64,000 nucleotides of DNA, taken from NCBI GenBank assembly GCA_021404785.1, contig QWHH01000004.1:1-64000 (forward strand), read 5' to 3'. The notes beneath the pieces were generated by a model, which searched no databases, was not told where the DNA came from, and saw only the letters and a program-made list of their open reading frames with translations. Each line of letters begins with the position of its first letter. The first letter of the stretch is position 1. Below, in pieces: positions 27,429 to 44,220 of this stretch. A program made the position numbers and the translations under genes. The stretch is from Lysobacterales bacterium PRO7. GTDB lineage: Bacteria > Pseudomonadota > Gammaproteobacteria > Xanthomonadales > Rhodanobacteraceae.

Positions 27429-27437
27429 AAAGAACTT

Positions 27438-27548
27438 GTCATTCCGGCATGGAATGCCGGAATCCAGAAGCCATGGATGGCAGGATCACAAGCACGAGCA
27501 GCATGGCATCCATGCAGTCTGGATGCCGGCATTCCATGCCGGCATGAC
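27438..27548. repeat. Head-to-head pair of REP-like palindromes
   Basis: Two copies of the same element lie in inverted orientation. The left unit begins GTCATTCC and folds ATTCCGGCAT / ATGCCGGAAT (27441-27463) around GGA. The right unit folds ATGCCGGCAT / ATGCCGGCAT (27523-27545) around TCC and ends CATGAC, the complement of the left end. Between them CCAGA...CCATGGATG and CATCCATG...TCTGG also pair, so the whole 111 bp can form one large cruciform. This build matches REP/BIME elements mobilised by TnpA-REP-type transposases; none is encoded in the window. It probably also stabilises or ends the pckG message. Confidence 0.85.
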
Positions 27549-27604
27549 GACTAGGATTTGACGGGTTTAAACCGGCTGGTACTCCACCGCATCCAAGCTC
27601 ACAA

Positions 27605-28183
27605 ATGGATGGCCTCGCCTTGACCGCCGATGTACCGATTGCCGAACCGACGCCGCGCGATGCGGATGCGGCGCTGGTGCGCCGCGCCCTGGCTGGCGAA
27701 GTCGCCGCATTCGAGCAGTTGTACCGGCGACATGCGGGGCGGGTGCACGGCGCGATTTTGCGCCTGGTTGGCAGGGATCGCGCGCGCGCCGAAGAATTGA
27801 CCCAGGACGCCTTCGTGCAGGCTTGGCGCAAGCTTGGCAGCTTCCGCTTCGAATCCACGTTTGCGACCTGGCTGCACCGGCTGGGCGTCAACATCGCGCT
27901 GATGGATTTGCGCATCCGCCGCGACGAGGACGCCATGGACGACGAAGCATTGCATGCGGCTGCTGGCGGGGAAGTGCCGTTTTGCGCCGCGGAACGCGGC
28001 GATCTGGAGCGCGCCGTGGCGGCGCTGCCCACGCGCGCACGCGCGGTGCTCGTGTTGCACGACGTGGAGGGCTACAAGCACGAAGAAATCTCGGCCGAAC
28101 TGGGCATGGCCGTGGGTTCGTCGAAAGCGCAACTGCATCGTGCACGCGGCTTGTTGCGGCGTGCACTCGGAGAAGCAGCATGA
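27605..28183 (+). CDS. ECF RNA polymerase sigma factor (RpoE-like)
   Basis: 192 residues. Sigma-2 region (AFEQLYRRHAGRVHGAILRLVGRDRARAEELTQDAFVQAWRKLGSFRFESTFATWLHRLGVNIALMDLRIRR) and sigma-4 region (LPTRARAVLVLHDVEGYKHEEISAELGMAVGSSKAQLHRARGLLRRAL) are complete, with a short linker between them. It is the first gene of a three-gene operon; its stop overlaps the next start (ATGA). Such factors respond to envelope stress and are held by the membrane protein encoded next. No autoregulatory promoter was recognised in the short upstream region. Confidence 0.95.
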   Translation: MDGLALTADVPIAEPTPRDADAALVRRALAGEVAAFEQLYRRHAGRVHGAILRLVGRDRARAEELTQDAFVQAWRKLGSFRFESTFATWLHRLGVNIALMDLRIRRDEDAMDDEALHAAAGGEVPFCAAERGDLERAVAALPTRARAVLVLHDVEGYKHEEISAELGMAVGSSKAQLHRARGLLRRALGEAA

Positions 28184-28635
28184 ATATCGGGAACGAATTC
28201 CAGTGGCGCAGCGAACTGCGCAAGCTTGGCGGCGACGTGGAACCGTCACGCGACCTGTGGCTGCCAATTTCCGCGCGCATCGCGGTACGGCTGGCGACGC
28301 AGCGCTGGCGCATGGGATTGGGAATCGCGGCGGCCCTGATCGCGGCCTGTGGCGTCGGCGCGATCGCCTGGCGCACGCAACATCAGGCGAGTTATCCGAC
28401 GGTCGCGCGTGCATCGAACGCCGTGCCGAGTATTTCCGCCGACAGCGCGCCGCTGGCCTGGGCCATGCCCGCGAATCCGGCGCTCGCCGCTGCCGCACGA
28501 GATCTGGACGCCGCCAATGTGCAATTGCAGCGCGCCATCGAACAAAACCCGCGGGCCGTGTTCCTGGTCGGCCTGCTCAACCGCACGAACGATCAACGCA
28601 TGCGCCTGCTGCGGCAGGAAAACAGCGCTGGATAA
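28180..28635 (+). CDS. Putative membrane anti-sigma factor
   Basis: 151 residues, overlapping the sigma gene by ATGA. A cytoplasmic N-terminal part (about 1-44, EFQWRSELRKLGGDVEPSRDLWLPI) precedes one transmembrane helix (MGLGIAAALIAACGVGAIAWR) and a periplasmic helical part (PANPALAAAARDLDAANVQLQRAIEQNP). The size, topology and position directly after an ECF sigma gene fit an anti-sigma factor that releases the sigma on signal. It has no zinc-finger HxxxCxxC motif, so it is not of the ZAS type. The assignment rests on context. Confidence 0.75.
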   Translation: MNIGNEFQWRSELRKLGGDVEPSRDLWLPISARIAVRLATQRWRMGLGIAAALIAACGVGAIAWRTQHQASYPTVARASNAVPSISADSAPLAWAMPANPALAAAARDLDAANVQLQRAIEQNPRAVFLVGLLNRTNDQRMRLLRQENSAG

Positions 28636-28678
28636 CCCACGCGATGACGACCCGAAAAAACGACATGAGACCGACGAT

Positions 28679-29620
28679 ATGAAAACTACGATCCTTCACG
28701 CGATGGCAATTGGACTTCTGCTGGTCGGCGGCGGCTATGCGCACGCCGATTCGCCCTATCGCGACATCGTCGCCGGCGATGCATCCAAGACCCTGGACGA
28801 AACCTGGGCGCTTGCTGCGGATGGAAGCATCACGGTTGCCAACATCAGCGGCAAGGTGCAGGTAACCGGCTGGGGCCAGGCCCAGGTCAAACTCGAAGGC
28901 AATCTTGGTGCGGGCTCGACGCTGGCGGTTTCCGGCGACGCGAAAAAATTGTCCCTGCAAGTCAAGACGACGAAATCCGGATGGTTCGGTTCGAATGCGC
29001 CGAGCCACGACAGTATCTTGATCGTGCATGTGCCGAAGAGCGCCGCACTTGATCTGAGCGTGGTCAGCGCTGATGCGGACGTCGATGGCATGGACGGAAA
29101 AACACTCAAGGTTGGCAGCGTAAGCGGTGACGTGACGATTGCAGGTTCGGCGCCGCAGATCGACGTCGATAGCGTCAGCGGCAACGTGACGCTGGCGGCG
29201 CCGGCAGGCTCGAGCGGCCGTGCGCACGTGCAGACCGTGAGCGGCGACATCAGTGCGAAGAATCTCGGTGGCCGGATCAAGCTGGAGACGGTCTCCGGCA
29301 ACATGGACTGCGCCTGTGGCGCCATCAGCGAACTGGAATCCGGCAGCGTATCCGGCGACGCCGACATCGCCGTCGCGCCTGCGAACGACGCGCACTTGCA
29401 TCTGTCGACCATGAGCGGCGGGGTGACCCTGCATCTGCCGGCGACGCTGTCTGCGCGCATCGATGCATCCAGTTTCAGCGGCGACATCCACAGCGATTTC
29501 GGCACCGTGCAGACCAAGGAATACGGCCCGGGCAGCAGTCTGAAGGCCACGCTCGGTGCGGGCAGCGCGCAGATCGGTATCGAATCGATGAGCGGCGATA
29601 TCCAGTTGCGCAAGCAGTAG
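28679..29620 (+). CDS. Exported DUF4097 beta-helix-like protein
   Basis: 313 residues. A signal peptide (1-23, ending YAHAD) is followed by a repetitive region with about ten repeats of roughly 20 residues, marked by SGDV/SGNV/SGDI-type turns (VSGDVTI, VSGNVTL, VSGDISA, VSGNMDC, MSGGVTL, MSGDIQL). This is the DUF4097 pattern, predicted to fold as a right-handed beta helix. The function is not known in general; here it is the third gene of an ECF sigma/anti-sigma operon, 43 nt after the anti-sigma gene, so it may take part in sensing envelope stress. The start at 28679 is chosen because it gives the signal peptide. Confidence 0.85.
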   Translation: MKTTILHAMAIGLLLVGGGYAHADSPYRDIVAGDASKTLDETWALAADGSITVANISGKVQVTGWGQAQVKLEGNLGAGSTLAVSGDAKKLSLQVKTTKSGWFGSNAPSHDSILIVHVPKSAALDLSVVSADADVDGMDGKTLKVGSVSGDVTIAGSAPQIDVDSVSGNVTLAAPAGSSGRAHVQTVSGDISAKNLGGRIKLETVSGNMDCACGAISELESGSVSGDADIAVAPANDAHLHLSTMSGGVTLHLPATLSARIDASSFSGDIHSDFGTVQTKEYGPGSSLKATLGAGSAQIGIESMSGDIQLRKQ

Positions 29621-29668
29621 CGCTTCGCCCTGTCGCGCCGCGACGCCGCTGCATGCGATCATGGCGGG

Positions 29669-31264
29669 ATGAAACTGCCATCACGCCTGACCGGACTTAC
29701 GCCTGCCGCGGCACAATCAATCGTCGCAACCGCGCAGGCACTGGAGGCCGGCCGCCCCGACGATGCGGCGCGTGCGCTGGCCGGTGCGTTGGCCAGCCAT
29801 CCGGATCATCCCGAGGCCTTGCGCCTGGAAGCCGGAATCCTGAATCTGCGCGGACAGCGCACCCAGGCTGCGAGCGTGATGCGGCGCGCGCTGGCACAAC
29901 GGCCCGACGATGCGCTGTACCACAATACACTCGGCAGCATCCTCGCCGATGCGGGGGAATTCGATCAGGCGATCGTCGAACTGCGGCGCGCCTGCGAATT
30001 GCAAGCGGACTTCGCCGCCGCCTGGTACAACCTGGGCATCGTGCTCGTTCGTTGCGTGCGTTACGACGAGGCCGACGCCGCGTTGCGCCAGGCCGTCGTG
30101 CTTGATCCGGGCAACGCCGACGCGCGCGCGCAACTGGCGGACACGCTGAAGGTTCGTGGTCGCAACGACGATGCCGTCGCGGAATATCGCCGCATCCTCG
30201 CGGCGCGACCATGGGCCGGCATGGCGTGGTGGGGCATCGCCAACATCAAGACCGTGCGCCTCGATGTGGCGGATATCGACGCCTTGCGCGCGGCCCTGCG
30301 CGATGCGCGCGCCAGCGACGACGACCGCATCGCGATCGGCTTTGCGTTGGCGCGTGCGCTCGACGACGAGCGTCGCTATGCCGATGCGCTGGATGCGCTG
30401 GCGCAGGCCAATGCGATCGCGCGACGGCGCAGAAAATGGGATGCGGCGGCGTTCGACGCGCAGCTTGGCGCGTTGCGCGATGCGTGTTCGTCCGCTGTTG
30501 GTGCGGACGATCCGGCATTGGGCGGCGATGTCATCTTCGTCGTCGGCCTGCCGCGCTCGGGCACGACCTTGGCCGAGCAGATCCTCGCTTCGCATTCGCA
30601 GGTCGAAGGCGCGGGCGAGCTGCCGGATCTCGCGCTCACGCTCAACGAGGAAGCGCAGCGCCGCGCTGCGCCGCTGGCACTATGGATCGGCGCGCAGACT
30701 CCGGCGGACTGGTCGCGGCTGGGCCGGCGTTACCTGGAACGGACCGCGCACTGGCGCGCGCGCAAGCCGCGCTTCGTCGACAAGATGCCGAACAACTGGA
30801 TCCAGATCGGCGCGATCCGCGCCATGCTGCCGGGCGCACGCATCGTGGTGTGCCGGCGCGATCCGCTGGAGACCTGTTTTTCCTGCTACCGCCAGCATTT
30901 CGCGGGCAACGACTGGACCCGCGACTTCACCGATCTTGCCGCATACTGGCGTGCCTTTGATCGCGTTGCACGCGCCTCGCACGAGCACTCCCCCGCGCGC
31001 ATCCGCCTGCACGACCACGAAGCATTGATTGCCGATCCACAGGCGCAGATTCGCGCATTGCTCGAGTTCTGCGATTTGCCTTTCGAAGAGTCGTGTCTGC
31101 GCTTTCACGAAACCGCGCGCGATGTGCGTTCACCCAGCGCCGCGCAAGTTCGGCAACCCTTGCGCGTCGACACCGCGCGTGCCGGTGATTACGGCAAATT
31201 GCTCGATCCCTTGCGCGTCGCACTCGGATTGCCCACTTTCGCGGATGCCGCACATGCCGGCTGA
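29669..31264 (+). CDS. TPR-domain sulfotransferase 1
   Basis: 531 residues. Residues 1-260 carry six or seven TPR units (for example ALYHNTLGSILADAGEFDQAIVELRRACELQADFAAAWYNLGIVL). Residues about 285-500 are a sulfotransferase domain with the PAPS 5'-phosphosulfate loop FVVGLPRSGTTLAEQIL, a later 3'-phosphate motif RIVVCRRDPLETCFSCYRQHF, and DKMPNNW between them. The enzyme is expected to transfer sulfate from PAPS to a protein, sugar or small molecule; the target is unknown. It starts a two-gene plus-strand unit within a cluster of four such genes around a TonB-dependent receptor. No signal peptide, so it acts in the cytoplasm. Confidence 0.92.
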   Translation: MKLPSRLTGLTPAAAQSIVATAQALEAGRPDDAARALAGALASHPDHPEALRLEAGILNLRGQRTQAASVMRRALAQRPDDALYHNTLGSILADAGEFDQAIVELRRACELQADFAAAWYNLGIVLVRCVRYDEADAALRQAVVLDPGNADARAQLADTLKVRGRNDDAVAEYRRILAARPWAGMAWWGIANIKTVRLDVADIDALRAALRDARASDDDRIAIGFALARALDDERRYADALDALAQANAIARRRRKWDAAAFDAQLGALRDACSSAVGADDPALGGDVIFVVGLPRSGTTLAEQILASHSQVEGAGELPDLALTLNEEAQRRAAPLALWIGAQTPADWSRLGRRYLERTAHWRARKPRFVDKMPNNWIQIGAIRAMLPGARIVVCRRDPLETCFSCYRQHFAGNDWTRDFTDLAAYWRAFDRVARASHEHSPARIRLHDHEALIADPQAQIRALLEFCDLPFEESCLRFHETARDVRSPSAAQVRQPLRVDTARAGDYGKLLDPLRVALGLPTFADAAHAG

Positions 31265-32771
31265 AGCGCAGGCGCTGACGGAATTGCGCGCGGCGGTACT
31301 GCGCGCCGACTGGCAAGTCGCGATTCGCGCCGCCACGGCAGGATTGGCCGAACATCCGGAATCACTGGAATTGCGCCGCGCACTGGCCGGCATCCACCGC
31401 CAGTTGGGGCACGACAGCGAGGCCGAAGTACTGCTGCGGCAAGTCCTGGCACGGGAGCCCGGCGATTTCGCGGCGGCGTTTACCCTGACCGAACTGCTGC
31501 TCGATGCCGGTCGCGGCGCGGCGGCGTCGGATGCCCTGCAACATTGCTTCGCGACCGGTGCGCACGATGCGGAACTCGCAATTCGCGCGATCGAACTGCT
31601 TGACGAAGGCGGACGCAAGCGCGCCGCCTCGAATATCGCAGAAGGCGCACTGGCCACGCAGCCGGACGATGCGCGCCTGCATGCGTATGCCGGCATGCTC
31701 GACGTGCAGCTGGGCGATTTCGAGCGTGCGCGAACGCACTTCGAATTCGCGCTGGCGCACGATTTGCGCGCCTGCGAATGGCACGTGTCGTTGGGCTTGT
31801 CCAGCGCACAACGCTATGCGGACGCGACGCATCCGGATTTTCGCCGCTTCGACGTTGCGCTGGCGCGTACGGACTTGTCGGACAAGGCGCGCGCTTCGCT
31901 ATTGTTTGCTGCTGGCAAGGCGCACGACGATATCGGCGATTACGCGCAAGCGGCGGATTTTTTTCGCCGTGCCAACGCGCTGGCGCATGCGCAGACGGCC
32001 TGGTCGCGCAAGAACTGGCGGCGCGCGGTCGAAGCGCGTTTGTCATCCAGGCCTTTTGCGCAAAAACTCGACGCGGCGGATTTCGTGCCGGTGTTCATCG
32101 TCGGCATGCCGCGTACGGGCACGACCTTGGCAGCGGAACTGCTGGCGCGGTATCCCGGCGTGCGCAATCGCGGCGAGTTGCCATGGCTGGCGAAACTTGC
32201 GCAATTGCCGGTTCTGGCCGGCAATCCGGCGCGCGCCACGCTGCAACGCTGCGCTGCGATTTATGCCTCGCAGTTGCGCCAGGACGATTCCGGCGACGCA
32301 CGATTTTTCATCGACAAACAGCCGCTGAATTTCCGCTATCTCGATTTGATCATGGCGCTATGGCCGAATGCGCGCATCGTGCACTGCACGCGCGGCGCAC
32401 GCGACACGGCGCTGTCGCTGTGGACGCAATCCTTCAGCGAAGACGTGCAGGGTTACGCCTGTGATTTTGCCGATATCGCGCAGGTTATGCGCGATTGTGA
32501 ACGGCTGATGGCGCTTTGGAGCGCACGCTATCCGGATGCGATTCGTGCACTGCGCTACGAGGAATTGGCCGCGCAGCCGCAAGCACAGATCGCCGCGCTT
32601 GCCGAATGGATCGGCTTGCGCTCGAATCCCGCGCCACGAGCGGATGCATCGCCCGAAGCGATCGGTACGGCCAGCCTGTGGCAGGCGCGTCAGCCGGTCT
32701 ACACGCGTTCGGTCGGGCGCTGGCGCAATTACGCGCCGTTCGTGCCGGAGCTGGGCAGGTTCGCCGAATAA
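31254..32771 (+). CDS. TPR-domain sulfotransferase 2
   Basis: 505 residues from the ATG at 31254, which overlaps the previous gene by 11 nt (ATG at 31245 is possible). TPRs fill the first 230 residues; the sulfotransferase domain has FIVGMPRTGTTLAAELL and RIVHCTRGARDTALSLWTQSF, with DKQPLNFRY between them. The domain differs more from the other three copies, which suggests a distinct acceptor. Its last 43 bases overlap the end of the convergent sulfotransferase 3 gene, an unusually long tail-to-tail overlap. It is probably co-translated with sulfotransferase 1. Confidence 0.9.
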   Translation: MPAEAQALTELRAAVLRADWQVAIRAATAGLAEHPESLELRRALAGIHRQLGHDSEAEVLLRQVLAREPGDFAAAFTLTELLLDAGRGAAASDALQHCFATGAHDAELAIRAIELLDEGGRKRAASNIAEGALATQPDDARLHAYAGMLDVQLGDFERARTHFEFALAHDLRACEWHVSLGLSSAQRYADATHPDFRRFDVALARTDLSDKARASLLFAAGKAHDDIGDYAQAADFFRRANALAHAQTAWSRKNWRRAVEARLSSRPFAQKLDAADFVPVFIVGMPRTGTTLAAELLARYPGVRNRGELPWLAKLAQLPVLAGNPARATLQRCAAIYASQLRQDDSGDARFFIDKQPLNFRYLDLIMALWPNARIVHCTRGARDTALSLWTQSFSEDVQGYACDFADIAQVMRDCERLMALWSARYPDAIRALRYEELAAQPQAQIAALAEWIGLRSNPAPRADASPEAIGTASLWQARQPVYTRSVGRWRNYAPFVPELGRFAE

Positions 32772-34576
32772 CCCCAGTGGTCGAGCATGGGTTGCAGGGT
32801 CGGCAAAACCGGCTCGAACCATTCACGATACATGTGCCAGCGGCCCAGACCCTTGCGATTGACCGGCTCGATGACCTGGCTGTAGCTCGGCGTCTGGATA
32901 TAGGCCTTTTCGCGCGCGCGGCGGTCGAATTGCAGCATCGGCGCAGCGTCGTCGAGATCGAGAAACCCGGCAATGCGCCGTGTTTGCGCCGTGGTATCGG
33001 CGACCAGGTCTTCGTAGCGCGAGACAAGGACATCGGGCTGGATGACGGACGCATGCTGCAGCCAGGTACGCATGGCCTGCACGTAAGCCGCCGCGAGCCG
33101 ATCGAGGTTCTCGCAGGCCGCGCCGAGCACGACCGAGCGGAAATTCTGCATGTAACACGACAGCACGACATCGCAGGGATGGCGTACGCACAAGATCAAT
33201 TTGGCTTCCGGAAACAGGCGGTGGATCAGGGGCAACCACGCCATGTTCAGCGGATTCTTGTCCACGAGTTGGGCGCCGTCGCGACGCGGAATGCGTTCGG
33301 CGGTCATCAGAAAATACATCTTGCGCAATTCGTCGCAGTCGTACTGGCGCAGTACCGAAAGATCGTCCAGGATGCGCGGATTGTGCGATCGCAATTTGCT
33401 GGCAAGACGCTCGAAGAACGGCGTTTCGTCCATTGATTGCAGCTGCGGGTGCGCATCAAGCATCTGCTCGAGAAGCGTGGTGCCGGAACGCGGAAATCCG
33501 ACCACAAAAATGGGTGAGTTGCGCGAATCGGGCGATCGATACCGCGGCCAGCGGGCATACTCTTCTGCCGTGATTTCGCGCACCTTGCCCGGCATCGGCA
33601 GGGCATCGGCGGCGAAACTTTCCGGCGCGGCATGCTTGAATTCGGTCACCTGGCGCGCGTGCGCTTCGTGCAGGGCGCGTATCGCCGCCGCCGAGTCGCG
33701 TAACTTGTCGCAGACATTGGCCAGCTCGAACCAGTACGCGTAGTCGTTGTCCTGGACCGGCCCGGATTGTTCCAGCAGCGCGCGCGCGTGTTGGGGATCA
33801 CCGCGACGCAGGGCAATCAGCGCGCGCGTGTTGAGAACCTGGCGGCGCGCAGCATCGCCGAGTTGCATTTCGTCGAGTGGTAGCAACGCCGTCTCGGCTT
33901 CATCGAGCAAATTGAGCCGTTCATCGATACGTGCCAGCAGGATGCGCGCATCGGCGCGATCGGGCTGGCGGGCGAGCAGTTCCTGCATGGCGAACTGCGC
34001 TCCCGGCGCGTCGGCCAGCAGCAGCAGGTTGCGCGCCAGTTCCACCTGCAGGTAGGTATCGTCCAGCGGCAGCCAGGTGCGCCAGGGTTTGAGCAAATCC
34101 TCGCAACCGCGGAAATCCAGCGCCAGTGCACAGGCGCGCGCGGCAAGTATGCGCGGACGCGGCGCGTCGCGATCGCGTTCGAAGGCGTCGAGCAGCGTGT
34201 CCCGCGCGGCGAGGTATTCTTTGCGTCCCATCTGCCGCTGCCCAATCTGGACATATGGCTCCGGATCAGCTGGATCGCACTCCATGGCGCGGCGCCAGGC
34301 CGTTTCGGATTCCTCGGTGCGGCCGGATTCGGCGAGGATGGTCGCGTAGTTGCTCCAGTGCACATGGCTTTCCGGCTGCAGCCGCGTGAGTTCCGCGTAT
34401 GCCTGCGTCGCATCGTCGGTGCGGTGTTGCGCGTGCAGGCTCATGGCCAGTGCGAGCCGTGCATCGATGTGGTCTGGTGTCTCGGCCAGCACGCGGCGGC
34501 TCAGGCGTTCGGCCTCGAGCGGATTGCCGGTTTTGAGTGCGTTGCCGATTTCCGTGAATATGGCGGGTTCATCCAT
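32729..34576 (-). CDS. TPR-domain sulfotransferase 3
   Basis: 615 residues from the ATG at 34576; a TTG at 34594 would add six residues. It has the longest TPR array of the four copies (about residues 1-330). The sulfotransferase domain has FVVGFPRSGTTLLEQML, DKNPLNMAW and KLILCVRHPCDVVLSCYMQNF, so the PAPS-binding elements are intact. It lies just beyond a strong intrinsic terminator that follows the TonB receptor gene; its start codon is only 17 nt past the T-run. Expression must therefore come from read-through or from a promoter inside the terminator region. Confidence 0.9.
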   Translation of the reverse strand: MDEPAIFTEIGNALKTGNPLEAERLSRRVLAETPDHIDARLALAMSLHAQHRTDDATQAYAELTRLQPESHVHWSNYATILAESGRTEESETAWRRAMECDPADPEPYVQIGQRQMGRKEYLAARDTLLDAFERDRDAPRPRILAARACALALDFRGCEDLLKPWRTWLPLDDTYLQVELARNLLLLADAPGAQFAMQELLARQPDRADARILLARIDERLNLLDEAETALLPLDEMQLGDAARRQVLNTRALIALRRGDPQHARALLEQSGPVQDNDYAYWFELANVCDKLRDSAAAIRALHEAHARQVTEFKHAAPESFAADALPMPGKVREITAEEYARWPRYRSPDSRNSPIFVVGFPRSGTTLLEQMLDAHPQLQSMDETPFFERLASKLRSHNPRILDDLSVLRQYDCDELRKMYFLMTAERIPRRDGAQLVDKNPLNMAWLPLIHRLFPEAKLILCVRHPCDVVLSCYMQNFRSVVLGAACENLDRLAAAYVQAMRTWLQHASVIQPDVLVSRYEDLVADTTAQTRRIAGFLDLDDAAPMLQFDRRAREKAYIQTPSYSQVIEPVNRKGLGRWHMYREWFEPVLPTLQPMLDHWGYSANLPSSGTNGA

Positions 34577-34592
34577 TGCAAAAATCCGGGGC

Positions 34593-34623
34593 AAAAAAAG
34601 AGCCGCGCGATTTCTCGCGCGGC
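34593..34623 (-). terminator. Intrinsic terminator between the TonB receptor and sulfotransferase 3
   Basis: On the minus strand, GCCGCGCGA and TCGCGCGGC form a perfect 9-bp GC stem with a 4-base loop, followed by CTTTTTTT. This is a textbook Rho-independent terminator, 34 bases past the receptor stop. It is the clearest one in the window. Sulfotransferase 3 begins immediately after it. Confidence 0.9.
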
Positions 34624-34657
34624 CCTTGAGTTTACGCTGTTTGCTTGACCGGTTCGA

Positions 34658-37600
34658 TCAGAACTTCACGGTCACGCGCGCCCAGTAGTAGCGGCCCAGC
34701 GTGTCGAACGTCGCCGTATCGGTGTTGCCGTTGAGCGAGTTGTTCGCCCACAGGAACGGCGGCTGGATGTCGCCCACGTTGTCGATACCCAGATCGACGC
34801 GCGTGTTCAGGCGCTCGATGTTGTAGCCGACCTGCACGTCGTTGTACGTGCGTGCACCGTAGTGGAGCTTGACGCCGTGCAGTGTGCAATCCTTGCCGAA
34901 CTGGGCGTAGTAGCACTGACCAGCCGGGAAGACATCTTCGTCGGCGCGAGCCGAACCCAAGGTGGTCTTGCCGATGTAGCGCATGCGCCAGGACGCATCC
35001 CACGCGCCGAGATTCCAGTTGACGTTGGCGAGTGCGCGCCAGCGCGGGAAGGTGCAAACGCCGGCCGGGGCGCTCGGGCAGGACGATTCCGGTGCGCTCA
35101 GGTACGGCAGGATGTGACCCGCGTTGTGGTACGTGAGGTCGCTGATGCCCGGAGCCACGGTCTGGTTGTACTGCGCGAGGTAGGTCGCATCCAGACCGAC
35201 CGAGAACTGGCCAAACGAGAACTGCGGCAGGCGGTACTTGATCGACAGATCCAGACCCTTGGTATCGAGGCGACCCAGGTTACCCGTCGGCTCCTGGATG
35301 TAGTCGATCTGGCCAGCGTCCTGACCGGTCTTGATGCGATGCACCAGCGGGCAGTAGGCGGTGGCGCCGACGAAGCAGCTGAGCAGAACCTGCTGCGCAC
35401 CGACCGTGGTGATGGTGTTGTCGAGCTTGATGCGCCACAGGTCGGCGCTCAGCGAGAGGCCTTCCACCCAGTGCGGCGAGTAGACGAAGCCCCAGTTGAA
35501 CGTCGAGCCGTTTTCCGGCTTGATCGGGAAGCCGGCGTACTGCGAACCGGACTGGATCGCCTTGATCTGCTGGCCACTGACCGTGTACTGGTTCTGGAAG
35601 CCGCCCGAAGTTGGCACGTACTGGCACGCCGGATTGCTGGCGTTCGGGTTGCTGGCGCCGGAGTAATTGCACGGGTCGGTCTTCAGGCCCGGTGCGTCGT
35701 TGATCGGCGCGCCGTACACGTCGCCGATGGTCGGCACACGGAACACCTTGTTGTAGTTGGCGCGCAGCAACAGGTCTTCGATCGGCTTGAATTCCACGCC
35801 GATCGCCGGATTGTTGGTGCTGCCGAACAGGCTGTACTTGGAATAGCGGTCGCTCAGGGTGACGTTCAGCGAATTGACGAACGGCAGGTCCTTGAGAACC
35901 GGGATGAACAACTCGGCGTAGGCTTCCTTGACGTTGTAGCCGCCGTTCAGGTGCGAGGAGCACTGGCTGCCCAGCGTACAGTTGCCGTTGTTGTCGATCT
36001 GCAGATCGGCGGAGACGGTGTTGTTGGTGTATTCCTTGCGATAGTTGCCACCAACGGCAAGCTGAACGGTACCGGCCGGCAGGTCGAACACGCCACCGTT
36101 GAAATCGATGCGGTGGACGCGTTCGAGACTCCAGGTGTTCGTCAACGCCGGCGAAGCGATCGTGCCGAGAATTGCCTTCTGATCAGGCGTGTACGGATTG
36201 AACGGGTTGAACGGCACGCAGCCGGCGATCGCCGTGGACGGATCGCCCGCCGTGCCCACGCAGGTCGGAACGCCATCGACGAGCATGGACGGGCCCATGG
36301 CGCGGTTCAGCAAGGCGACGTTCGGCAGGCCCAGCGTGGTACCGACGGACGAGATGTGACCGTAGTCGGTGGCCAGTTCCCAGTTCCAGTCCTGGTTGAA
36401 GATGCCGAAATGGCCCTTGAAGCCGAAGCTGAACTGGTCTGTCGTGTTGTTGGAGCGGAACGCGCGCGGGCCGGCCGCAACGAGGCGCTCGCGGAATTCC
36501 TTGCCGCCGGACACGAAATCGGTGCCGAACGGGTTGTACATGTTGTCTTTGGAGATGACCGCGCCATAGATCGTGCCGAGCAGTGACGGCGCGAGTTGGA
36601 AGCCCGATTGGGTCTTGTTGTGGTAGCCGGTCATGTACACATCGACGTTGTCGGTCAGATGGTAGGTGCCGTTCACGAACAGGTTGGTGCGTTCCTGCGG
36701 GGTCATCAACAGGTTGACGGCCGCGTAGTTGTATTTGTCCGACGGACCGGCCGCGTTCGCATTGTTGCGGAAGCAGTGGTAGTCGGTCAGTGCGTTGGCG
36801 CCACTGGTGCCTGGCGTATGTGCCAGCGTGGTGCAACCGTACTGGGCATACAGCGGGCCGGAGTTCGGGATCTTGATATAGCCGTTCGGGCCGAACGTCG
36901 AGCCACCCGGCGCCACATTGTCCGGGCTGCTTGGCGGCGTAATGGCGCCAACCGGCGAACCGCCGGCCGAGGTGCCGCTGCCGCGACCGTACAGGGACTT
37001 GGCATCCTGCGAGAACTTGCGGTGCGACTGCAGCACGGCGTCCTGCTTGTTGTAGTCGATGCCGGCCATGATGCTGCCCTTGTCGGACGTCTGGCCGAAC
37101 ATGAAGTGATAGCCCTTGCGCTGGCCGTCATCGTGATCGGAAATACCGTAGTCGGCCGAGAACTCGGCGCCCTGGTAGTTCTTTTTCAGGATGACGTTGA
37201 CCACGCCGCCGATGGCCGACGAACCGTACACGGCCGAGGCGCCGGAAGTCAGGACTTCGATGCGTTCCACCGCCGCGATCGGAATCGCATCGATGTCGTT
37301 GTTCACCGCATTGTGACCGTCGACCAGCAGCAGGGTGCGGGCCGCACCGATACCACGCAGGTTGATCGTGGCCGAGCCGCTGCCGCCGCCGTTGTTGACC
37401 TGCGGGTTGGTGCCCATCATGTTGGCCGGCAGGCTCTGGACGAGGTCGCCCAGGGTCAGCTTGCCGGAATTCTGGATCGCGGCGCTGTCAATGGAAATGA
37501 CCGGATTGGCCGTTTCGATGTCTACGCGGCGGATGTTCGAACCAGTCACCACGATGGTCTCGAGGGCCTGGCTCTTCTGGTTGGTGTTGGTATTGCCGGT

Positions 37601-37699
37601 ATCCTGGGCATTCGCCGTCAGGGTTCCAGCAGCGGCCACCGTGCCCAGCGTCAACGCCAGGCGAACCGCCGATGAAAGTTTATTTACGTCGAGTCTCAT
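34658..37699 (-). CDS. TonB-dependent outer-membrane receptor
   Basis: 1013 residues from the ATG at 37699, which has GGAGAG upstream. A signal peptide (about 1-32, ending TANAQ) precedes a TonB-box-like start (ETIVVTGSNIRR) and plug domain (LGDLVQSLPANMMGTNPQVNNGGGSGSATINLRGIGAARTLLLVDGH). A long 22-strand-type barrel ending VTVKF with a terminal Phe follows. Several extracellular Cys pairs are visible. The barrel is of the large Oar/carbohydrate-type seen in Xanthomonadales; the ligand is unknown. The receptor sits at the heart of the sulfotransferase cluster. A 12-bp palindrome lies in its leader, and a terminator follows it. Confidence 0.95.
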   Translation of the reverse strand: MRLDVNKLSSAVRLALTLGTVAAAGTLTANAQDTGNTNTNQKSQALETIVVTGSNIRRVDIETANPVISIDSAAIQNSGKLTLGDLVQSLPANMMGTNPQVNNGGGSGSATINLRGIGAARTLLLVDGHNAVNNDIDAIPIAAVERIEVLTSGASAVYGSSAIGGVVNVILKKNYQGAEFSADYGISDHDDGQRKGYHFMFGQTSDKGSIMAGIDYNKQDAVLQSHRKFSQDAKSLYGRGSGTSAGGSPVGAITPPSSPDNVAPGGSTFGPNGYIKIPNSGPLYAQYGCTTLAHTPGTSGANALTDYHCFRNNANAAGPSDKYNYAAVNLLMTPQERTNLFVNGTYHLTDNVDVYMTGYHNKTQSGFQLAPSLLGTIYGAVISKDNMYNPFGTDFVSGGKEFRERLVAAGPRAFRSNNTTDQFSFGFKGHFGIFNQDWNWELATDYGHISSVGTTLGLPNVALLNRAMGPSMLVDGVPTCVGTAGDPSTAIAGCVPFNPFNPYTPDQKAILGTIASPALTNTWSLERVHRIDFNGGVFDLPAGTVQLAVGGNYRKEYTNNTVSADLQIDNNGNCTLGSQCSSHLNGGYNVKEAYAELFIPVLKDLPFVNSLNVTLSDRYSKYSLFGSTNNPAIGVEFKPIEDLLLRANYNKVFRVPTIGDVYGAPINDAPGLKTDPCNYSGASNPNASNPACQYVPTSGGFQNQYTVSGQQIKAIQSGSQYAGFPIKPENGSTFNWGFVYSPHWVEGLSLSADLWRIKLDNTITTVGAQQVLLSCFVGATAYCPLVHRIKTGQDAGQIDYIQEPTGNLGRLDTKGLDLSIKYRLPQFSFGQFSVGLDATYLAQYNQTVAPGISDLTYHNAGHILPYLSAPESSCPSAPAGVCTFPRWRALANVNWNLGAWDASWRMRYIGKTTLGSARADEDVFPAGQCYYAQFGKDCTLHGVKLHYGARTYNDVQVGYNIERLNTRVDLGIDNVGDIQPPFLWANNSLNGNTDTATFDTLGRYYWARVTVKF

Positions 37700-37718
37700 T
37701 ACACTCTCCAACGTCAGG

Positions 37719-37730
37719 GTTGTATACAAC
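37719..37730. promoter_or_regulatory. 12-bp perfect palindrome in the TonB receptor leader
   Basis: GTTGTATACAAC is perfectly self-complementary and lies 20 bp upstream of the receptor start codon. On the minus strand it contains TATACA, a plausible -10 element, but no matching -35 is visible. TTGTATACAA-type palindromes are common for GntR-family regulators, so this could be an operator controlling receptor expression. No such regulator is encoded in the window. Confidence 0.5.
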
Positions 37731-37889
37731 GTTTCGGGACAAATCCTTCCTGGAAAACAGCCAAAGAACGGCACACCTAAGGCCTTGGCAGCGGTCGATA
37801 GTAGCAACATTTGCTTAACATGGGAATCCCTTCGCGGATTCAGTTCCAAGGTATTGAAACCACGAAAATTACCCGTTCGAACAGGCGTT

Positions 37890-39446
37890 TCAGTCCATGC
37901 GTTCCAATGCGCGCGCCAACGGAGCGAGTTGGGTGTCGTAGCGACGCCAGGAATCGACAAAACGCTTGTGCACGGGCTCGCGCACCTGCACGGCGCTCAG
38001 CGTGGACACCGCGCTGCGGTTGCGGGTGAGGTCGGTGCAGCCCGGCTCCCAGGCCAATCCGCAGAATTGCAGGACCTGGCGTACGGTTTCGTCCGGGTTT
38101 GCGACCAGGTCGGCATAGGCGACGTCGCGAATCCGGCCGGGCATCGCCGCATGCCAATGCGCCATGGTGCGCCGGTAGACGCGATAGTGCGATGCGAGCG
38201 CCTCCAGATTGTAAATATGTGCAAATGCATCGGCGAACAGGGCGCGGAAGTTCGAAAAGCACACATCCATCGGGTCGCGCACGAGGTTGATGATGCGCGC
38301 TTGCGGCAAGGCTTTGGCGATGAGCCCGGCCAGCATCCAGTTGCGCGGCAATTTGTCGGTAAAGAACGGTTTGCCGGCAGCGCGCCACTGGGTTTGCTCC
38401 AGATAGCGCCGCCCGAGTTGGGCGAAGTCGATCTGCGGCAGGCGTTCGATGGTGGTGGCGTCCAGGGTTACGCGATGATCGGCCGCCCAGCGCAACTGGA
38501 ACGCAAAATCATCAAGCTCCCCTACCGATTCGACCTGGGAATGATTGCCGAGCAGCCGGTCGAGCACCGTGGTTCCCGAGCGCGGCATGCCGATGATGAA
38601 GATCGGCTGTGGGCCGGAATGGCTGACTTCGGCCGGCCGCAGGAATTCGGCGGTGCAGGCACGTGTCAGTTTCTCGAACAAAAGCCGCGTCTTTTCCGGA
38701 TCGTGGCGGTGGCGCGCGTACATCAGCGCATTGCCGTGGGCGAGCGCCGCCCAGGCTTCGTCGAGCCGGCCAAGGTCTTCGAATTCCTTGTAGCGGGCGA
38801 ACTCGATCGAGGCATGCTCGTAACTGCCCGGATGCACGCGTTGCAACGCTTGCGCGGTGCCAGATAGATGGTTGTGCTCTGCGGTCTGCTTGCGCAGGCG
38901 TGCCAGCTCCTGCCAGGCGCGGCCATAGGTCGGATCGCGGCGCACGGTTTCCAGAAATTCGCCTTCGGCTTCCTCGATGCGGCCATTGAATACCAGTTGC
39001 ACGCCGCGCCGGAAACGAAACTCCGGACCGTCGGCGCCCAGTGCCCGGGCACGGTCGTAGAGCGCCAGGGATTCGGCGGTCTGATTGAGCAAATAGCGAT
39101 GCTCGGCCAATTGCACCAGTGCCGGAACCGAACGAATCCTGGCGCAGGCCGGGCGATCCATGCAGCGCGCGGCGGCCGCCGTCTCGCCAGCGCGAATCAG
39201 CGCCGCGACGACGGCGACAATCGGTTCGGGATCGCCTGCGAACATCGCCTCGGCGGCGAGCGCGTGCCGCGCGGAATCGCGCACTCGATCGTCTTCCCAG
39301 GCGATGTCGGCCAACAGCAGATGTGCTTGCGCGTGCTGCGGATTGTGCTGGATGAAGGATTCGAGTTTGACGCGTGCCGCATCGAGGTTGCCCTCGGCCA
39401 GATAACGCTGGGCGCGGATCCAGTGGCGATCGGAGGTATCGTTCAT
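37890..39446 (-). CDS. TPR-domain sulfotransferase 4
   Basis: 518 residues from the ATG at 39446; a GTG at 39452 is an alternative. TPR-like helices fill residues 1-270 (RYLAEGNLDAARVKLESFIQHNPQHAQAHLLLADIAWED). The sulfotransferase domain has FIIGMPRSGTTVLDRLL, DKLPRNWMLAG and RIINLVRDPMDVCFSNFRALF, and is most like copies 1 and 3. It lies upstream of the receptor on the same strand with 190 bp between them, and 57 nt downstream of the predicted outer-membrane protein. Copies 1, 3 and 4 probably arose by duplication, followed by divergence of the TPR part. Confidence 0.92.
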   Translation of the reverse strand: MNDTSDRHWIRAQRYLAEGNLDAARVKLESFIQHNPQHAQAHLLLADIAWEDDRVRDSARHALAAEAMFAGDPEPIVAVVAALIRAGETAAAARCMDRPACARIRSVPALVQLAEHRYLLNQTAESLALYDRARALGADGPEFRFRRGVQLVFNGRIEEAEGEFLETVRRDPTYGRAWQELARLRKQTAEHNHLSGTAQALQRVHPGSYEHASIEFARYKEFEDLGRLDEAWAALAHGNALMYARHRHDPEKTRLLFEKLTRACTAEFLRPAEVSHSGPQPIFIIGMPRSGTTVLDRLLGNHSQVESVGELDDFAFQLRWAADHRVTLDATTIERLPQIDFAQLGRRYLEQTQWRAAGKPFFTDKLPRNWMLAGLIAKALPQARIINLVRDPMDVCFSNFRALFADAFAHIYNLEALASHYRVYRRTMAHWHAAMPGRIRDVAYADLVANPDETVRQVLQFCGLAWEPGCTDLTRNRSAVSTLSAVQVREPVHKRFVDSWRRYDTQLAPLARALERMD

Positions 39447-39503
39447 GCGCACGCAGGCACGGCGCTCAGTCGCAACGCGACCGGGTCCCGCGGATGGGAA
39501 AAA

Positions 39504-40532
39504 TCACAGGTCCTGATGGTATTGCACGTACGGCACGCGCGCCTGGCTCGGATCGGGCTCGTGCGCGGGATCGGCAAGCAGCGGCGGCGTGCCGGAAGAC
39601 CACAGGTTCTGGGCGCCGATGCTGAACACGCCGCGCCACGGCGCGCGCCAGGAAATGCCCAGGTCGAAGCTGGTCCAGTTCTGGCCGTTGCCCAGCGCGT
39701 TGTCCGCACCGAGTACGCGACCGGTCAGGGTGCCGCTGAAATTGCCGCTGCGCAAACCGAAACTCAGCGCGGCCTGGTTGAGTGCCGGCAGCAGTGGGCT
39801 GCCCGGCAGCGCATATTGCAAACGGCTGATCGCGGCGCCGATGTCCAGGCTCTGCTCGTCGTTCCAGCGCCAGTGGCTTTGCGCGCCGATGCCGGCGTCG
39901 CGGATATCCGCCCATTGCAGGGCCGGAATCGCGAGCGTGGGCAGCGCTTGGCTGCCGATCGTCGTGAACAGGTCCCACGGGGCCTGTGTGGCCGTGGCGG
40001 ACGCTGAACCGGAATGGCGCAACCACGAGAAACCGTAGTCCACACCGGCGCTGAAGCGATCGTTGCCGGTGCCAGCCCCGATACTCACGGCGCCAGTGTC
40101 GACAGCGGCCGCGTTGTGTGGGCACAGCGCGTAGGGTGCGAACGCGGCAGAACCGCAGCCGACGGTGACCGCGGCCGAATTGAGCGGGGTCAGCGCGATG
40201 CCGCGGCCGAACTTCGCCCAGGCGCTGACGTGATTGCCCATTTGCATCGACAGACCGCCACCGACGAAGTTGGTGACATCAATCAATTGCCAATCGGCAG
40301 CGGATCCGATTTGCGGCGCCTGCGGCATCACCGGCGCGCCATGGTTGCCGCCAAGGGCTACCAGCGCCAGAACCCGGCCATCCGGAGTGCTCCACAAGGG
40401 CATGCGCAACCCCGCGTCACCAGCCGGCTGGATGATCGAGCCGGCGCTTTGCGTTTGCGCAGGCACGACCGTCTGTGCCAGCGCCAGGGCGGGCGAGAAA
40501 ACGGCAATGAAGAACGCGATTGCTAAACGCAT
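39504..40532 (-). CDS. Predicted outer-membrane beta-barrel protein
   Basis: 342 residues, no family I can name. It has a clean signal peptide (MRLAIAFFIAVFSPALALAQ) and then alternating amphipathic strands rich in Gly, aromatic and small residues (SMQMGNHVSAWAKFGRGIALTP, RFSAGVDYGFSWLRH, GVFSIGAQNLWS), typical of an outer-membrane barrel. Two or three Cys lie near residues 125-140. The C-terminus (YVQYHQDL) lacks the usual final aromatic. It is upstream of sulfotransferase 4 on the same strand and may belong to the receptor cluster. Confidence 0.7.
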   Translation of the reverse strand: MRLAIAFFIAVFSPALALAQTVVPAQTQSAGSIIQPAGDAGLRMPLWSTPDGRVLALVALGGNHGAPVMPQAPQIGSAADWQLIDVTNFVGGGLSMQMGNHVSAWAKFGRGIALTPLNSAAVTVGCGSAAFAPYALCPHNAAAVDTGAVSIGAGTGNDRFSAGVDYGFSWLRHSGSASATATQAPWDLFTTIGSQALPTLAIPALQWADIRDAGIGAQSHWRWNDEQSLDIGAAISRLQYALPGSPLLPALNQAALSFGLRSGNFSGTLTGRVLGADNALGNGQNWTSFDLGISWRAPWRGVFSIGAQNLWSSGTPPLLADPAHEPDPSQARVPYVQYHQDL

Positions 40533-40672
40533 GGCCTGCTTGTCGTATGGCGCGATTGTATGAACACACGGCGGTCGACGAGTTCAATGCACCGAACCCA
40601 CCAGCGCTTGCTACGAGTATAGCGCAAATTACGGAAAACTAACAATTACTTTCGGCACCTGTCTGGCTTAAG

Positions 40673-43333
40673 TTGAGTCGGAAACTCGTTAAACTAACCA
40701 TCTGGAGAGTTGGGGATTCGATTTTGCCGTCACAAGCAACAGACGAAGTCGGGACGCCGGTTGATGGCGCAGCCGGTACTGCACGGGAGCAGCCGGCACC
40801 AAAGTTCACGGGTGTTCGCGGCTCGGATCTGGAACAGGCCGAACGCTTGCAGCGCGCCCTGTTTGCGATCGCCGACCTGGCCAGCAACGACCTGGACCTT
40901 TCCGAAGTCTACAAGTCCTTGCACGGAATCATCGGCAGCCTGATGTATGCCGAGAATTTCTTCATCGCCTTGTACGACGTGGCGCGCGACACCCTGCGTT
41001 TTGCCTATTTCGTCGATGTCGCAGATACCGATGCGCCCAGCCCTGATGACGAGGTGCCGATGCAAAAGTGGTATGGCAGCATCACCTGGCACCTGATCAA
41101 GGGCGGCAAGCCGTTGCGCGGCACGCTTGATGAAATCGAAGCGCAAGTGGGCGAGTCGATGGTCGGATTCGGCCCGGATTGCGTGGACTGGATGGGCGTG
41201 CCGCTGTTGCGCTCGGGCAAGGTCAGCGGCGCCCTGGTCGTGCAAAGCTATACCGAGAATGCGCGCTATACCGGGCGCGACCAGGAACTGCTCACCTACG
41301 TCGCCCAGCACATCCAGTCGGCACTGGAGCGGCGCTTCGCGCACGAAGAACTCGAACGCCGTGTTGCCGAACGCACCGACGCGCTGCGTGATGCCAACCG
41401 CATGCTCCAGCAGCAGGTGCTCGAACGCCAGCGCGGCGAGCGTTTGCAGGCGGCGTTGTTTCGCATTGCCGAACTCGCCAACAGCAGCGATAGCCTCGAC
41501 GAATTCTATGCCGCGGTGCATCGTGCCGTGGGTGGATTGCTGTATGCCCGGAATTTCTACATCGCCCTGCTCAGCGACGATGGCACGCAATTGGTGTTCC
41601 CGTATTCGGTGGACGAACGCGACCTGAAGCGTGAACCGCGCGCGCTCGGCAATGGCTTGACCGAATACGTGCTGCATACCCGCAACGCCCTGCTTGCCGA
41701 TCGTGCAGGGCTGGAGGAACTGTACGCCACGGGCGCGGCGCAGCCTTTCGGCACGCGCTCGCGCAGCTGGCTCGGCGTCCCGTTGATCTGTTCCGATCGC
41801 GCGGTTGGCGTGCTTGCCGTGCAGAGCCATTCCGAAGAACACAATTTCACGCCGCGCGACCAGGATCTGTTGACCTTCGTCTCCTATCACATCGCGAATG
41901 CGCTGGAACGCAAGCGCAACGCGGAATCGCTCAAGCAGGCGAATGCCGAACTCGAGCAGCGCGTCATCGCGCGCACCAGCGAACTGGCGGCGGCCAACAA
42001 CGAGTTGCGCGAAAACATCGCCGTACGCGAGCGCATGGAACGCCAGCTCAAGCATGAAACCCTGCATGACGCGCTGACCGGGCTGCCGAACCGCAATTTC
42101 CTGATCCAGCGCCTGACCCAGTCGCTGGCCAACTTTGCGCGCGACCCGCGGCGGCGGTTTGCGGTGCTGTTCCTTGATCTTGACCGGTTCAAGGTGATCA
42201 ACGATTCGGTCGGACACCTGATCGGCGACGAACTGCTCAACGAAGTGGGCGGACGCATTGCGGCGTGTCTGGAGCCGCGCGATATCGTCGCGCGCCTGGG
42301 CGGCGACGAGTTCGCGATCCTGCTCAACGACATCGAGGATGCCGACGACGCCTGCGCGCTGGCGCAACGCGTGATCGACGCGCTCAACGCGCCGGTCCGG
42401 CTCGGCGGCAAGGAAGTATTCAGTTCCACCAGCATCGGCATTGCGATGGTCGCCTCGCGTTATCGCAAGGCCGAAGAATTGCTGCGTGACGCCGACGTGG
42501 CCATGTATCGCGCCAAGAACGAAGGCCGTCACCGCTATGCCCTGTTCGACGAACACCTGCACAAGGAAGCGATGCAGTTGATGGAGCTGGAAAGCGACTT
42601 GCGCCGGGCTGTCGCGCGCAACGAGTTCATTCCGTTCTTCCAGCCTGTGGTGCAAATGGCGGATCGTTCGACGATCGGCTACGAGGCGCTGCTGCGCTGG
42701 CAGCATCCCGAGCGCGGCCTGCTGTTGCCAGCCGACTTCCTGGCCGTTGCCGAGGACACCGGCATTGCCGAGCAGATCGACTGGCAGATGTTCGAGCGCA
42801 CGTTCGAGATTGCCACTCCGTTGCTGGAGGGAAACGCCGGCTTTATCGCAATCAATCTGTCGGGCCGGCATTTCCGTACCCAATCACTGGACGCGGACTT
42901 GCTGGCGTTGCTGGATAAACACAAGATACGACCCGATCGCCTGCGCATCGAGGTGACCGAGCGCATGCTCATCGACAATCCGCCGGCCGCCAAGCGCCTG
43001 CTCGATGCATTGCGCGCGCACGGCATCGGCGTGGCCCTGGACGATTTCGGCACCGGCTATTCGTCGTTGAGCTACCTGCACCAGTATCCGGTGCAGACTC
43101 TGAAGATCGACCGCTCGTTCGTGGCCGGCACGGGTTCGGAAAATCCCGGCAGCACGGCGATCGTGCGCGCAATCCTGGCGCTGGCCGGAGCGCTCGACAT
43201 GCAGGCGATTGCCGAAGGCGTGGAAACCGAAGCGCAGCACCAGATGCTGATGCAGCTGGGCTGCCGCCTGGGCCAGGGATTCCTGTATGCGCGGCCGCAG
43301 CCGGCGCATGTGTGGCTGGATCGTAACCGCTAG
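40673..43333 (+). CDS. GAF-GAF-GGDEF-EAL cyclic-di-GMP protein
   Basis: 886 residues from a TTG; the first ATG lies far inside the first GAF domain, so a non-ATG start is needed, though TTG at 40724 is also possible. Two GAF domains (about 45-215 and 255-420), each preceded by similar helical segments (ERLQRALFAIADLA), lead through a coiled coil to a diguanylate cyclase domain with intact GGDEF (about 543-547). A phosphodiesterase domain follows with EAL (near 671), AINLSGRH, DDFGTGYSSL and EGVET. Both active sites look intact, so it may both make and break c-di-GMP. It is divergent from the outer-membrane protein. Confidence 0.92.
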   Translation: MSRKLVKLTIWRVGDSILPSQATDEVGTPVDGAAGTAREQPAPKFTGVRGSDLEQAERLQRALFAIADLASNDLDLSEVYKSLHGIIGSLMYAENFFIALYDVARDTLRFAYFVDVADTDAPSPDDEVPMQKWYGSITWHLIKGGKPLRGTLDEIEAQVGESMVGFGPDCVDWMGVPLLRSGKVSGALVVQSYTENARYTGRDQELLTYVAQHIQSALERRFAHEELERRVAERTDALRDANRMLQQQVLERQRGERLQAALFRIAELANSSDSLDEFYAAVHRAVGGLLYARNFYIALLSDDGTQLVFPYSVDERDLKREPRALGNGLTEYVLHTRNALLADRAGLEELYATGAAQPFGTRSRSWLGVPLICSDRAVGVLAVQSHSEEHNFTPRDQDLLTFVSYHIANALERKRNAESLKQANAELEQRVIARTSELAAANNELRENIAVRERMERQLKHETLHDALTGLPNRNFLIQRLTQSLANFARDPRRRFAVLFLDLDRFKVINDSVGHLIGDELLNEVGGRIAACLEPRDIVARLGGDEFAILLNDIEDADDACALAQRVIDALNAPVRLGGKEVFSSTSIGIAMVASRYRKAEELLRDADVAMYRAKNEGRHRYALFDEHLHKEAMQLMELESDLRRAVARNEFIPFFQPVVQMADRSTIGYEALLRWQHPERGLLLPADFLAVAEDTGIAEQIDWQMFERTFEIATPLLEGNAGFIAINLSGRHFRTQSLDADLLALLDKHKIRPDRLRIEVTERMLIDNPPAAKRLLDALRAHGIGVALDDFGTGYSSLSYLHQYPVQTLKIDRSFVAGTGSENPGSTAIVRAILALAGALDMQAIAEGVETEAQHQMLMQLGCRLGQGFLYARPQPAHVWLDRNR

Positions 43334-44220
43334 TGCTGGGTCGGCGCCGCGGGCATATCCTGCCCGCTGCGGAACACCTGTTCCAGATCCACACGGTCGA
43401 AGCGATATTGGGTATTGCAGAACTCGCAAGTCACCTCGACTTGGCCATCGTCGCGCAACGCAGCTTCGGCTTCCGAACGTCCCAGCGAATGCAGCATCGC
43501 CGCGACGCGCTCGCGCGAGCAACTGCAACCGAAGCGCAACGGTTGCGCCGCATGCAGGCGCACGTTTTCTTCGTGGAACAAACGGTACAGCAAAGTTTCC
43601 GGCGCGACCGTCAGCAACTCGTTCGCACGCGCGCTCGCGAGCAGGTGGCCAACGCGATTCCAGGCATCCGCGTCATCCTCGGCATGGACGCTGCCGGGCA
43701 GACGCTGCAGCATCAGGCCTGCGCAGCTGCCATCACCACAGGCAAGCACGACGCGCGTGGGCAGTTGTTCGGAACGCTCGAAGTAGCGCTCGAAAAGCGT
43801 CGCCAGGTGCGCGTCTTCCACCGGCACCAAACCCTGATAGCGCTGTCCGCTGGTGCGGTTGTCGATGGTGATCGCGAGCAGCGGCGCCGGCTGCGCGCCG
43901 AGCATGGAAGATTCATCCGCAAGGTCGCCGGCCCAACGCGCCAGTCCGCGCACTTGGCCGTCGCTGCCGCATTCGGCGAACAGCAAGTTGACCGGGCCGG
44001 CGTTCTTGATCTGGATCGACAGCGCGCCGTCGAACTTGACGTTGCCGGTGAACAATGCGCTCGCGGCCAGCGTGCGACCGAGCAGATCGGCCAGTGCCGG
44101 CGGATACTCGGCGCGGCCACGCACCTGATCCCAGCTGTCGGTCAGGCGCACGAGCACGCCGCGTACGCCGGCGCGTTCGAGTTCGAAGCGATGCAGGAAA
44201 TCGTTGGGCAAATCGGACAT
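43330..44220 (-). CDS. hslO: Redox-regulated chaperone Hsp33
   Basis: 296 residues. The N-terminal domain has FTGNVKFDGALSIQIKNAGPVNLLFAECGSDGQVRGLARW, and the C-terminal zinc switch has FGCSCSRERV...VEVTCEFCNTQYRFD with the four conserved cysteines (CxC...CxxC). Oxidation releases zinc and turns the protein into a holdase under oxidative and heat stress. The ATG at 44220 is chosen; the open frame continues far upstream without homology. Its stop interlocks with that of the c-di-GMP gene (CTAG, 43330-43333). Confidence 0.97.
   Translation of the reverse strand: MSDLPNDFLHRFELERAGVRGVLVRLTDSWDQVRGRAEYPPALADLLGRTLAASALFTGNVKFDGALSIQIKNAGPVNLLFAECGSDGQVRGLARWAGDLADESSMLGAQPAPLLAITIDNRTSGQRYQGLVPVEDAHLATLFERYFERSEQLPTRVVLACGDGSCAGLMLQRLPGSVHAEDDADAWNRVGHLLASARANELLTVAPETLLYRLFHEENVRLHAAQPLRFGCSCSRERVAAMLHSLGRSEAEAALRDDGQVEVTCEFCNTQYRFDRVDLEQVFRSGQDMPAAPTQH

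Follow-up and report, generated by a model that had tools for sequence, protein, structure and literature searches.

Does a receptor gene surrounded by sulfotransferase genes form one system with them, and what would such enzymes modify? The question is raised by a cluster at positions 29,669 to 40,532 of the window, i.e., the whole stretch of 64,000 nucleotides that was analysed, from contig QWHH01000004.1 of Lysobacterales bacterium PRO7 (Rhodanobacteraceae). The original prediction, made from the sequence alone, described a cluster of six genes, in which four sulfotransferases with tetratricopeptide repeats (TPR) accompany one TonB-dependent receptor and a predicted outer-membrane barrel, and suggested that the enzymes may modify a product which the receptor then recognises or imports. 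That observation is partly confirmed, with all six open frames present where they had been placed, and its interpretation is partly supported: the receptor P0004 and the third sulfotransferase, P0003, constitute a conserved and probably functional pair, while sulfotransferases 1, 2 and 4 are optional members and the sixth gene, P0006, is a flanking core gene. The most likely work of this module is the receptor-linked sulfation of a polypeptide.

A receptor and a sulfotransferase inherited together

P0004 (34658..37699, minus strand, 1013 aa) is the first gene of the core pair, and P0003 (32729..34576, minus strand, 615 aa; PF13469, 131 bits), the dedicated partner of the receptor, follows on the same strand 81 bp downstream. 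The identification of P0004 as a TonB-dependent receptor held, both the Pfam plug (PF07715) and the TonB-receptor barrel (PF00593) being found over cut-off. Linkage was analysed in 98 genomes of the same family as the source, starting from 80 receptor neighbourhoods, hand-picked among the matches listed (nearly all of the best-ranked and about 20 lower ones), and then adding 40 loci selected by the enzyme, each with a P0003-type enzyme and used for the enzyme-to-receptor count only. Genes in these loci were called by choosing the longest frames, guided by codon-position GC and homology, and some start codons are therefore wrong.

Conservation beyond the strain had been set beforehand as a test, and it was found: relatives of P0003 occur in 17 of the 26 genera of the family (E 1e-25), and a P0004-like receptor lies one to three genes upstream, on the same strand, in 84/89 copies of the P0003 family (76 directly downstream of the receptor, seven at two genes and one at three). 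The remaining five are the copy in L097, close to the end of its contig, the second one in L103, and those in L126, L127 and L135. Long relatives of P0003 amount to 93 (at least 206 bits, the next match scoring 123), 89 of which entered the linkage count; the four outside it are G066:C23 and G006, for which a receptor is listed directly upstream, and G025:C2:247 and G085:C1:1118110. In L126, L127 and L135, all of genus g14, the enzyme stands beside or near a protein of 217-244 aa, belonging to one family and showing a weak nitroimidazole-reductase likeness below the model cut-off.

Relatives of P0004 (E 1e-60) are present in at least 89 of the 98 genomes, and in the receptor-ranked sample a P0003-family enzyme lies at most three genes away from 44/84 receptors, a linkage that by band of receptor similarity amounts to 18/23 (at least 1000 bits), 11/16, 10/28, 5/5 and, in the most distant band, 0/12. 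A same-strand sulfotransferase directly downstream was recorded for 42/84 receptors, against a random-neighbour probability of about 0.001 (estimated from 796 sulfotransferase matches in 407 Mb and 98 genomes, with 900 genes per Mb assumed). The adjacency of receptor and sulfotransferase is not due to chance.

Comparison of the receptor and sulfotransferase phylogenies, proposed as a check on the cluster, gave strongly correlated distances (0.91 over 76 pairs, with a maximum of 0.20 in 2000 permutations) and a receptor clade of 30 loci whose counterpart among the enzymes comprises these loci plus L129, where the receptor is incomplete. Because linkage alone makes linked trees alike, a sharper test is offered by the 20 genomes that carry both version A, the kind found in the window, and version B: all 42 enzymes and all 35 receptors group by version and not by genome. 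The gene setting of version B varies, with M17/M1/Prc peptidases, DinB or other genes as neighbours; the pair itself is retained in all of them, and a gene for a TPR-bearing Asp/Asn hydroxylase (AspH) may precede it, follow it or be absent. Across genera of this family, the two genes have been passed on as a pair.

A second pairing was observed in the source genome (C5, L009:6607-11364), where the receptor P0007 (806 aa) lies directly downstream of the TPR-sulfotransferase P0008. P0007 shares with P0004 25% identity over 145 plug-region positions, and P0008 falls outside the P0003 cluster. For 30/30 receptors of the P0007 kind (E 1e-80 or better) in the 98 genomes, source included, the gene immediately upstream on that strand encodes a sulfotransferase, as matched by eye from the listed coordinates. 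The two genes thus stand in the opposite order to P0004 and P0003. Since both partners are distant, the two pairings appear to be separate in origin.

Receptor and enzyme might nevertheless be mere neighbours held together by inheritance, without joint function, as linked genes give concordant trees whether or not they work together, and for 40/116 receptors no enzyme was recorded at a distance of up to three genes (partly paralogues, where the genome also has a linked copy; receptors below 850 aa were excluded from this count, as from the linkage by similarity band given above and from the tyrosine comparison and the version-A/B neighbour counts given below). This we consider very unlikely, given the extent of the linkage on the enzyme side, the persistence of the pair while its flanks change, and the similar pairing, in another gene order, of a second receptor family.

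Outside the family the picture changes. P0003-like matches (1e-45) were found class-wide in 15/369 genomes, 13 of them outside the family, and the 15 loci from these 13 genomes included a receptor in two cases only (L137, on the opposite strand, and L142, between other sulfotransferases). Phylum-wide, 31/398 genomes gave matches; in 30 loci, with flanks of at most about 1.5 kb, a receptor was present in 3/3 loci of the family and in 3/27 others, among which only L190 has it on the same strand. The constant pair is therefore largely a property of one family.

What the sulfotransferase may modify

All four sulfotransferases carry a Sulfotransfer_3 domain behind TPR repeats (115-168 bits, Pfam cut-off 27), and on inspection the P-loop, the Glu that follows it, the DK motif and the Arg/Ser 3'-phosphate motif are kept in each, which bears out the claim of intact motifs for 3'-phosphoadenosine-5'-phosphosulfate (PAPS). 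In the families drawn from the loci, the P-loop pattern is present in 89/89 P0003, 41/42 P0001/P0005 and 29/32 P0002 members, and the strict Arg-x-Pro...Ser pattern in 88/89, 33/42 and only 4/32, respectively, the last figure being low owing to a variant of this motif in the P0002 family. Residues R363, E384, K440, R465, S473 and S564 of P0003 are invariant in 61 sequences, at what we take to be PAPS-binding and catalytic (Glu/Lys/Ser) positions, and the motif patterns of this family occur in 88-89 of its 89 copies, the last motif (Q..P) in 76. Copies 1, 3 and 4 had been regarded as paralogues; BLAST instead groups copies 1 and 4 (P0001 and P0005, 34% identity over 367 residues) in one family, and places copy 2 (P0002) in a second and copy 3 in a third. 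It had also been noted that no sulfate-activation gene lies near the cluster, and this stands for the neighbourhood but not for the genome (2.81 Mb, with 11 Sulfotransfer_3 matches and 12 receptor-barrel matches, of which one scores below cut-off), which encodes one adenosine 5'-phosphosulfate kinase at C4:244007-244450, so that PAPS is available in the cell.

Residues 1-316 of P0003 form a helical TPR array according to Pfam and to the AlphaFold2 model (pLDDT 94.1), and the top solved matches of the catalytic half in Foldseek are protein-tyrosine sulfotransferases (TPSTs); the VIA comparison, a second look at these Foldseek matches, covers only the folds among them. On account of the TPR array, P0003 may be TPST-like in action without being a classical TPST, and it is predicted to transfer sulfate to tyrosine or, less likely, to Ser/Thr. 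The view of the sulfotransferases as cytoplasmic-looking proteins tied to the receptor agrees with our results, no signal peptide being seen in the enzyme and the neighbourhood being conserved. Using PAPS, the enzyme would act in the cytoplasm; its superhelix of TPRs could grip an extended polypeptide as that of O-GlcNAc transferase does, and the TPST-like domain would sulfate the polypeptide before export. The product would then serve one receptor: it could be the chain of that receptor, modified before it reaches the outer membrane, or else a ligand of the receptor, in the form of an exported peptide or protein. To a receptor-dedicated, TPR-guided polypeptide-sulfation module we give about even chances. 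The fuller proposal is offered tentatively and is doubtful as a whole: each such receptor would have its own cytoplasmic TPR-guided tyrosine sulfotransferase, sulfating, ahead of export, either the chain of the receptor or the single peptide that it binds, in a receptor-specific system of outer-membrane modification that arose at least twice and was extended by hydroxylases.

The enzyme could instead sulfate a small molecule (a siderophore-like compound, a lipid or a sugar), the sulfated form of which the receptor imports. TonB-type receptors import small ligands; P0003 moreover resembles CurM and olefin-synthase sulfotransferase domains in structure matches, with the model of NoeE, the nodulation-factor sulfotransferase, far below cut-off, and a family-2 glycosyltransferase (L050:1478-2434) recurs in 6/46 version-A modules, though probably as a core flank. 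That gene aside, no biosynthesis or exporter family appeared among the identified recurrent flanks, some families being without a Pfam match (3/20 in one set of scans) or unscanned, and the TPR superhelix and the TPST-like domain indicate a polypeptide. The receptor also speaks against a small molecule, since P0004 falls far below the cut-off of every NCBIfam receptor model listed, with 40.9 bits against 368 for the SusC/RagA polysaccharide receptor (TIGR04056) and 31 against 223.5 for the TonB siderophore receptor (TIGR01783). We regard a small-molecule substrate as possible, if rather improbable. A FecA-type N-terminal signalling domain was also looked for in P0004, where Pfam at E 0.01 gave the plug and the barrel only.

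Added enzymes, substrate search and flanking genes

TPR-sulfotransferases and TPR Asp/Asn hydroxylases are often added to the pair. Another sulfotransferase lies within six genes in 38/46 version-A and 5/30 version-B modules, the P0002 family and the P0001/P0005 family each being present in 26/46 of version A. Within the same distance, a TPR-Asp/Asn-hydroxylase occurs in 14/46 and 9/30 modules, and a small 2-oxoglutarate-Fe(II) oxygenase in 13/46 of version A, the latter being absent from the 18 families listed for version B (each flanking family took its domain name from a single representative). Asp/Asn hydroxylases of the same Pfam family are also encoded elsewhere in the genomes, 97/98 of which have one. 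The recurrence of TPR-bearing modifying enzymes would favour a polypeptide substrate.

The optional members in the window are P0001 (29669..31264, plus strand, 531 aa; PF13469, 141 bits), which overlaps by 11 bp P0002 (31254..32771, plus strand, 505 aa; 115 bits), whose 3' end in turn shares 43 bp with the 3' end of P0003, and P0005 (37890..39446, minus strand, 518 aa; 168 bits), which immediately precedes the receptor on that strand. Elsewhere in the source genome, L011:6326-8182 and L011:10916-12763 (genome C7) encode an Asp/Asn-hydroxylase domain fused to a sulfotransferase domain, and a MATCAP-type protein (tyrosine carboxypeptidase family) directly follows a TPR-sulfotransferase at L010:8072-11017 (genome C16); in other genomes, proteins of this type are also found near the version-B pair (L105, L106, L116, L123 and L128).

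A TPST-like enzyme and an Asp/Asn hydroxylase, with domains fused in the source genome, would be a plausible tailoring set for a ribosomal peptide that is exported and then recaptured by the receptor, with its precursor gene located elsewhere, on the models of RaxST/RaxX and of lasso-peptide tailoring. Sulfotransferase, AspH and lasso-peptide clusters are indeed numbered almost consecutively in a table of PMC10040529, which leaves their adjacency unstated. However, no small open frame keeps a constant position close to the receptor in more than 4/127 loci (2502 frames of 20-150 aa, clustered at E 1e-5, a search that very divergent precursors would escape), and the named flanks include no gene for lasso peptides or for peptide export, so that we hold a tailored ribosomal peptide to be unlikely. 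Near-receptor clusters of at least four loci, among those listed, were two of 22-23 aa frames in the receptor's leader, four loci each, and one, again of four loci, on the opposite strand at 2.5-2.7 kb from the receptor midpoint; larger clusters had no fixed place near the receptor. A linked-specific tyrosine, which would mark the receptor as a substrate, was sought and not found, as no tyrosine was near-invariant in linked and rare in unlinked receptors (76 linked, 28 unlinked and 12 outgroup sequences, a comparison that a site in a variable loop would escape).

The leader of the receptor gene (37700..37889, minus strand) carries directly 5' of the start codon the element ACGTTGGAGAG (37704-37714, minus strand), found in the same place at 24 other receptor starts; 25 of its 49 matches in the 127 loci, with at most one mismatch, fall at such starts. 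ACGTTGGAGAG may be an extended ribosome-binding site or a target of RNA regulation. No palindrome is common to more than 3 of 76 receptor leaders, and an Rfam scan of 25000-45000 gave no structured-RNA match.

P0006 (39504..40532, minus strand) had been predicted to be an outer-membrane barrel, a claim left without support: it matches the XOO1806 family only, over most of the model but below cut-off (85.3 bits against 280), and its AlphaFold2 model, beta-rich with a pLDDT of 61.9, is too poor to decide either way. It is a distant relative of the XOO1806 family. XOO1806-like proteins occur in 97/98 genomes of the family, mostly as one match each, and in 20/20 loci that lack the receptor pair they have as neighbour a divergent gene of 964-1047 aa, the 965-aa family among these neighbours being a GAF-GGDEF-EAL protein. 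Such a protein (40673..43333, plus strand; Pfam) flanks the cluster in the window, as a core gene outside the module, and P0006 itself is probably outside it. The strongly conserved C-terminus of XOO1806-like proteins, around PYVQYHQDL, contains two tyrosines, for which P0006 was proposed as a dedicated substrate; this candidate was rejected because of the presence of a relative in nearly all genomes and because both tyrosines are present in 45/45 sequences (25 beside the module, 20 elsewhere), among them those of G010, G063 and G090, genomes in which no PF13469 gene was found. Left of P0001 the window encodes a phosphoenolpyruvate carboxykinase, a sigma factor and a DUF4097 protein, and the named recurrent flanks of the loci are mostly housekeeping genes (among them those for lipoyl synthase, a lipoyl ligase, E2/E3 dehydrogenase subunits, Hsp33, DegV and a type II/IV secretion ATPase).

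Comparison with known systems

To our knowledge, bacterial tyrosine sulfation is known from very few cases. The constant pair ties a TPST-like enzyme to one named receptor and thereby offers a direct experimental handle; if the proposed role is true, sulfation would be linked to outer-membrane uptake, and the many sulfotransferases of the family (796 matches in 98 genomes) would have a reason. Among open-licence texts we found no description of TPR-sulfotransferases paired with TonB receptors, which is not proof of absence.

With SusC-type and siderophore TonB receptors P0004 shares plug and barrel, while falling far below their curated cut-offs. O-GlcNAc transferase (TPR plus GT41) and mammalian AspH are eukaryotic proteins in which, as in P0003, a TPR superhelix is joined to a protein-modifying domain, and the hydroxylase of the module resembles mammalian AspH in having TPRs too; the catalytic chemistry differs.

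Animal TPSTs have their catalytic domain behind a membrane anchor and are without TPR. The sulfotransferase domain of P0003 aligns over nearly its whole length with TPST1/TPST2 and the tick TPST, including the PAPS motifs, the Glu position, the Lys, the Arg/Ser and the S..QVI.P.N end segment, and TPST is the best fold match of its catalytic half. In contrast to these enzymes, P0003 is bacterial, has a long TPR array and no membrane anchor that could be seen, and is encoded beside a TonB receptor.

A bacterial case of tyrosine sulfation is RaxX of Xanthomonas, and according to PMC6637879 RaxST is accompanied by the small precursor gene raxX and the exporter genes raxA and raxB; the term 'tpr' does not appear in the main text of that paper. 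No raxA/raxB-type exporter was present among the named flanks in the window and the named recurrent families. The cluster had been described as reminiscent of RaxST/RaxX yet distinct from it, and both halves of this description hold: the two systems share a bacterial TPST-like enzyme whose proposed substrate is an exported polypeptide, whereas no precursor gene was found near the module, which has a receptor in that place, and its enzyme carries TPRs.
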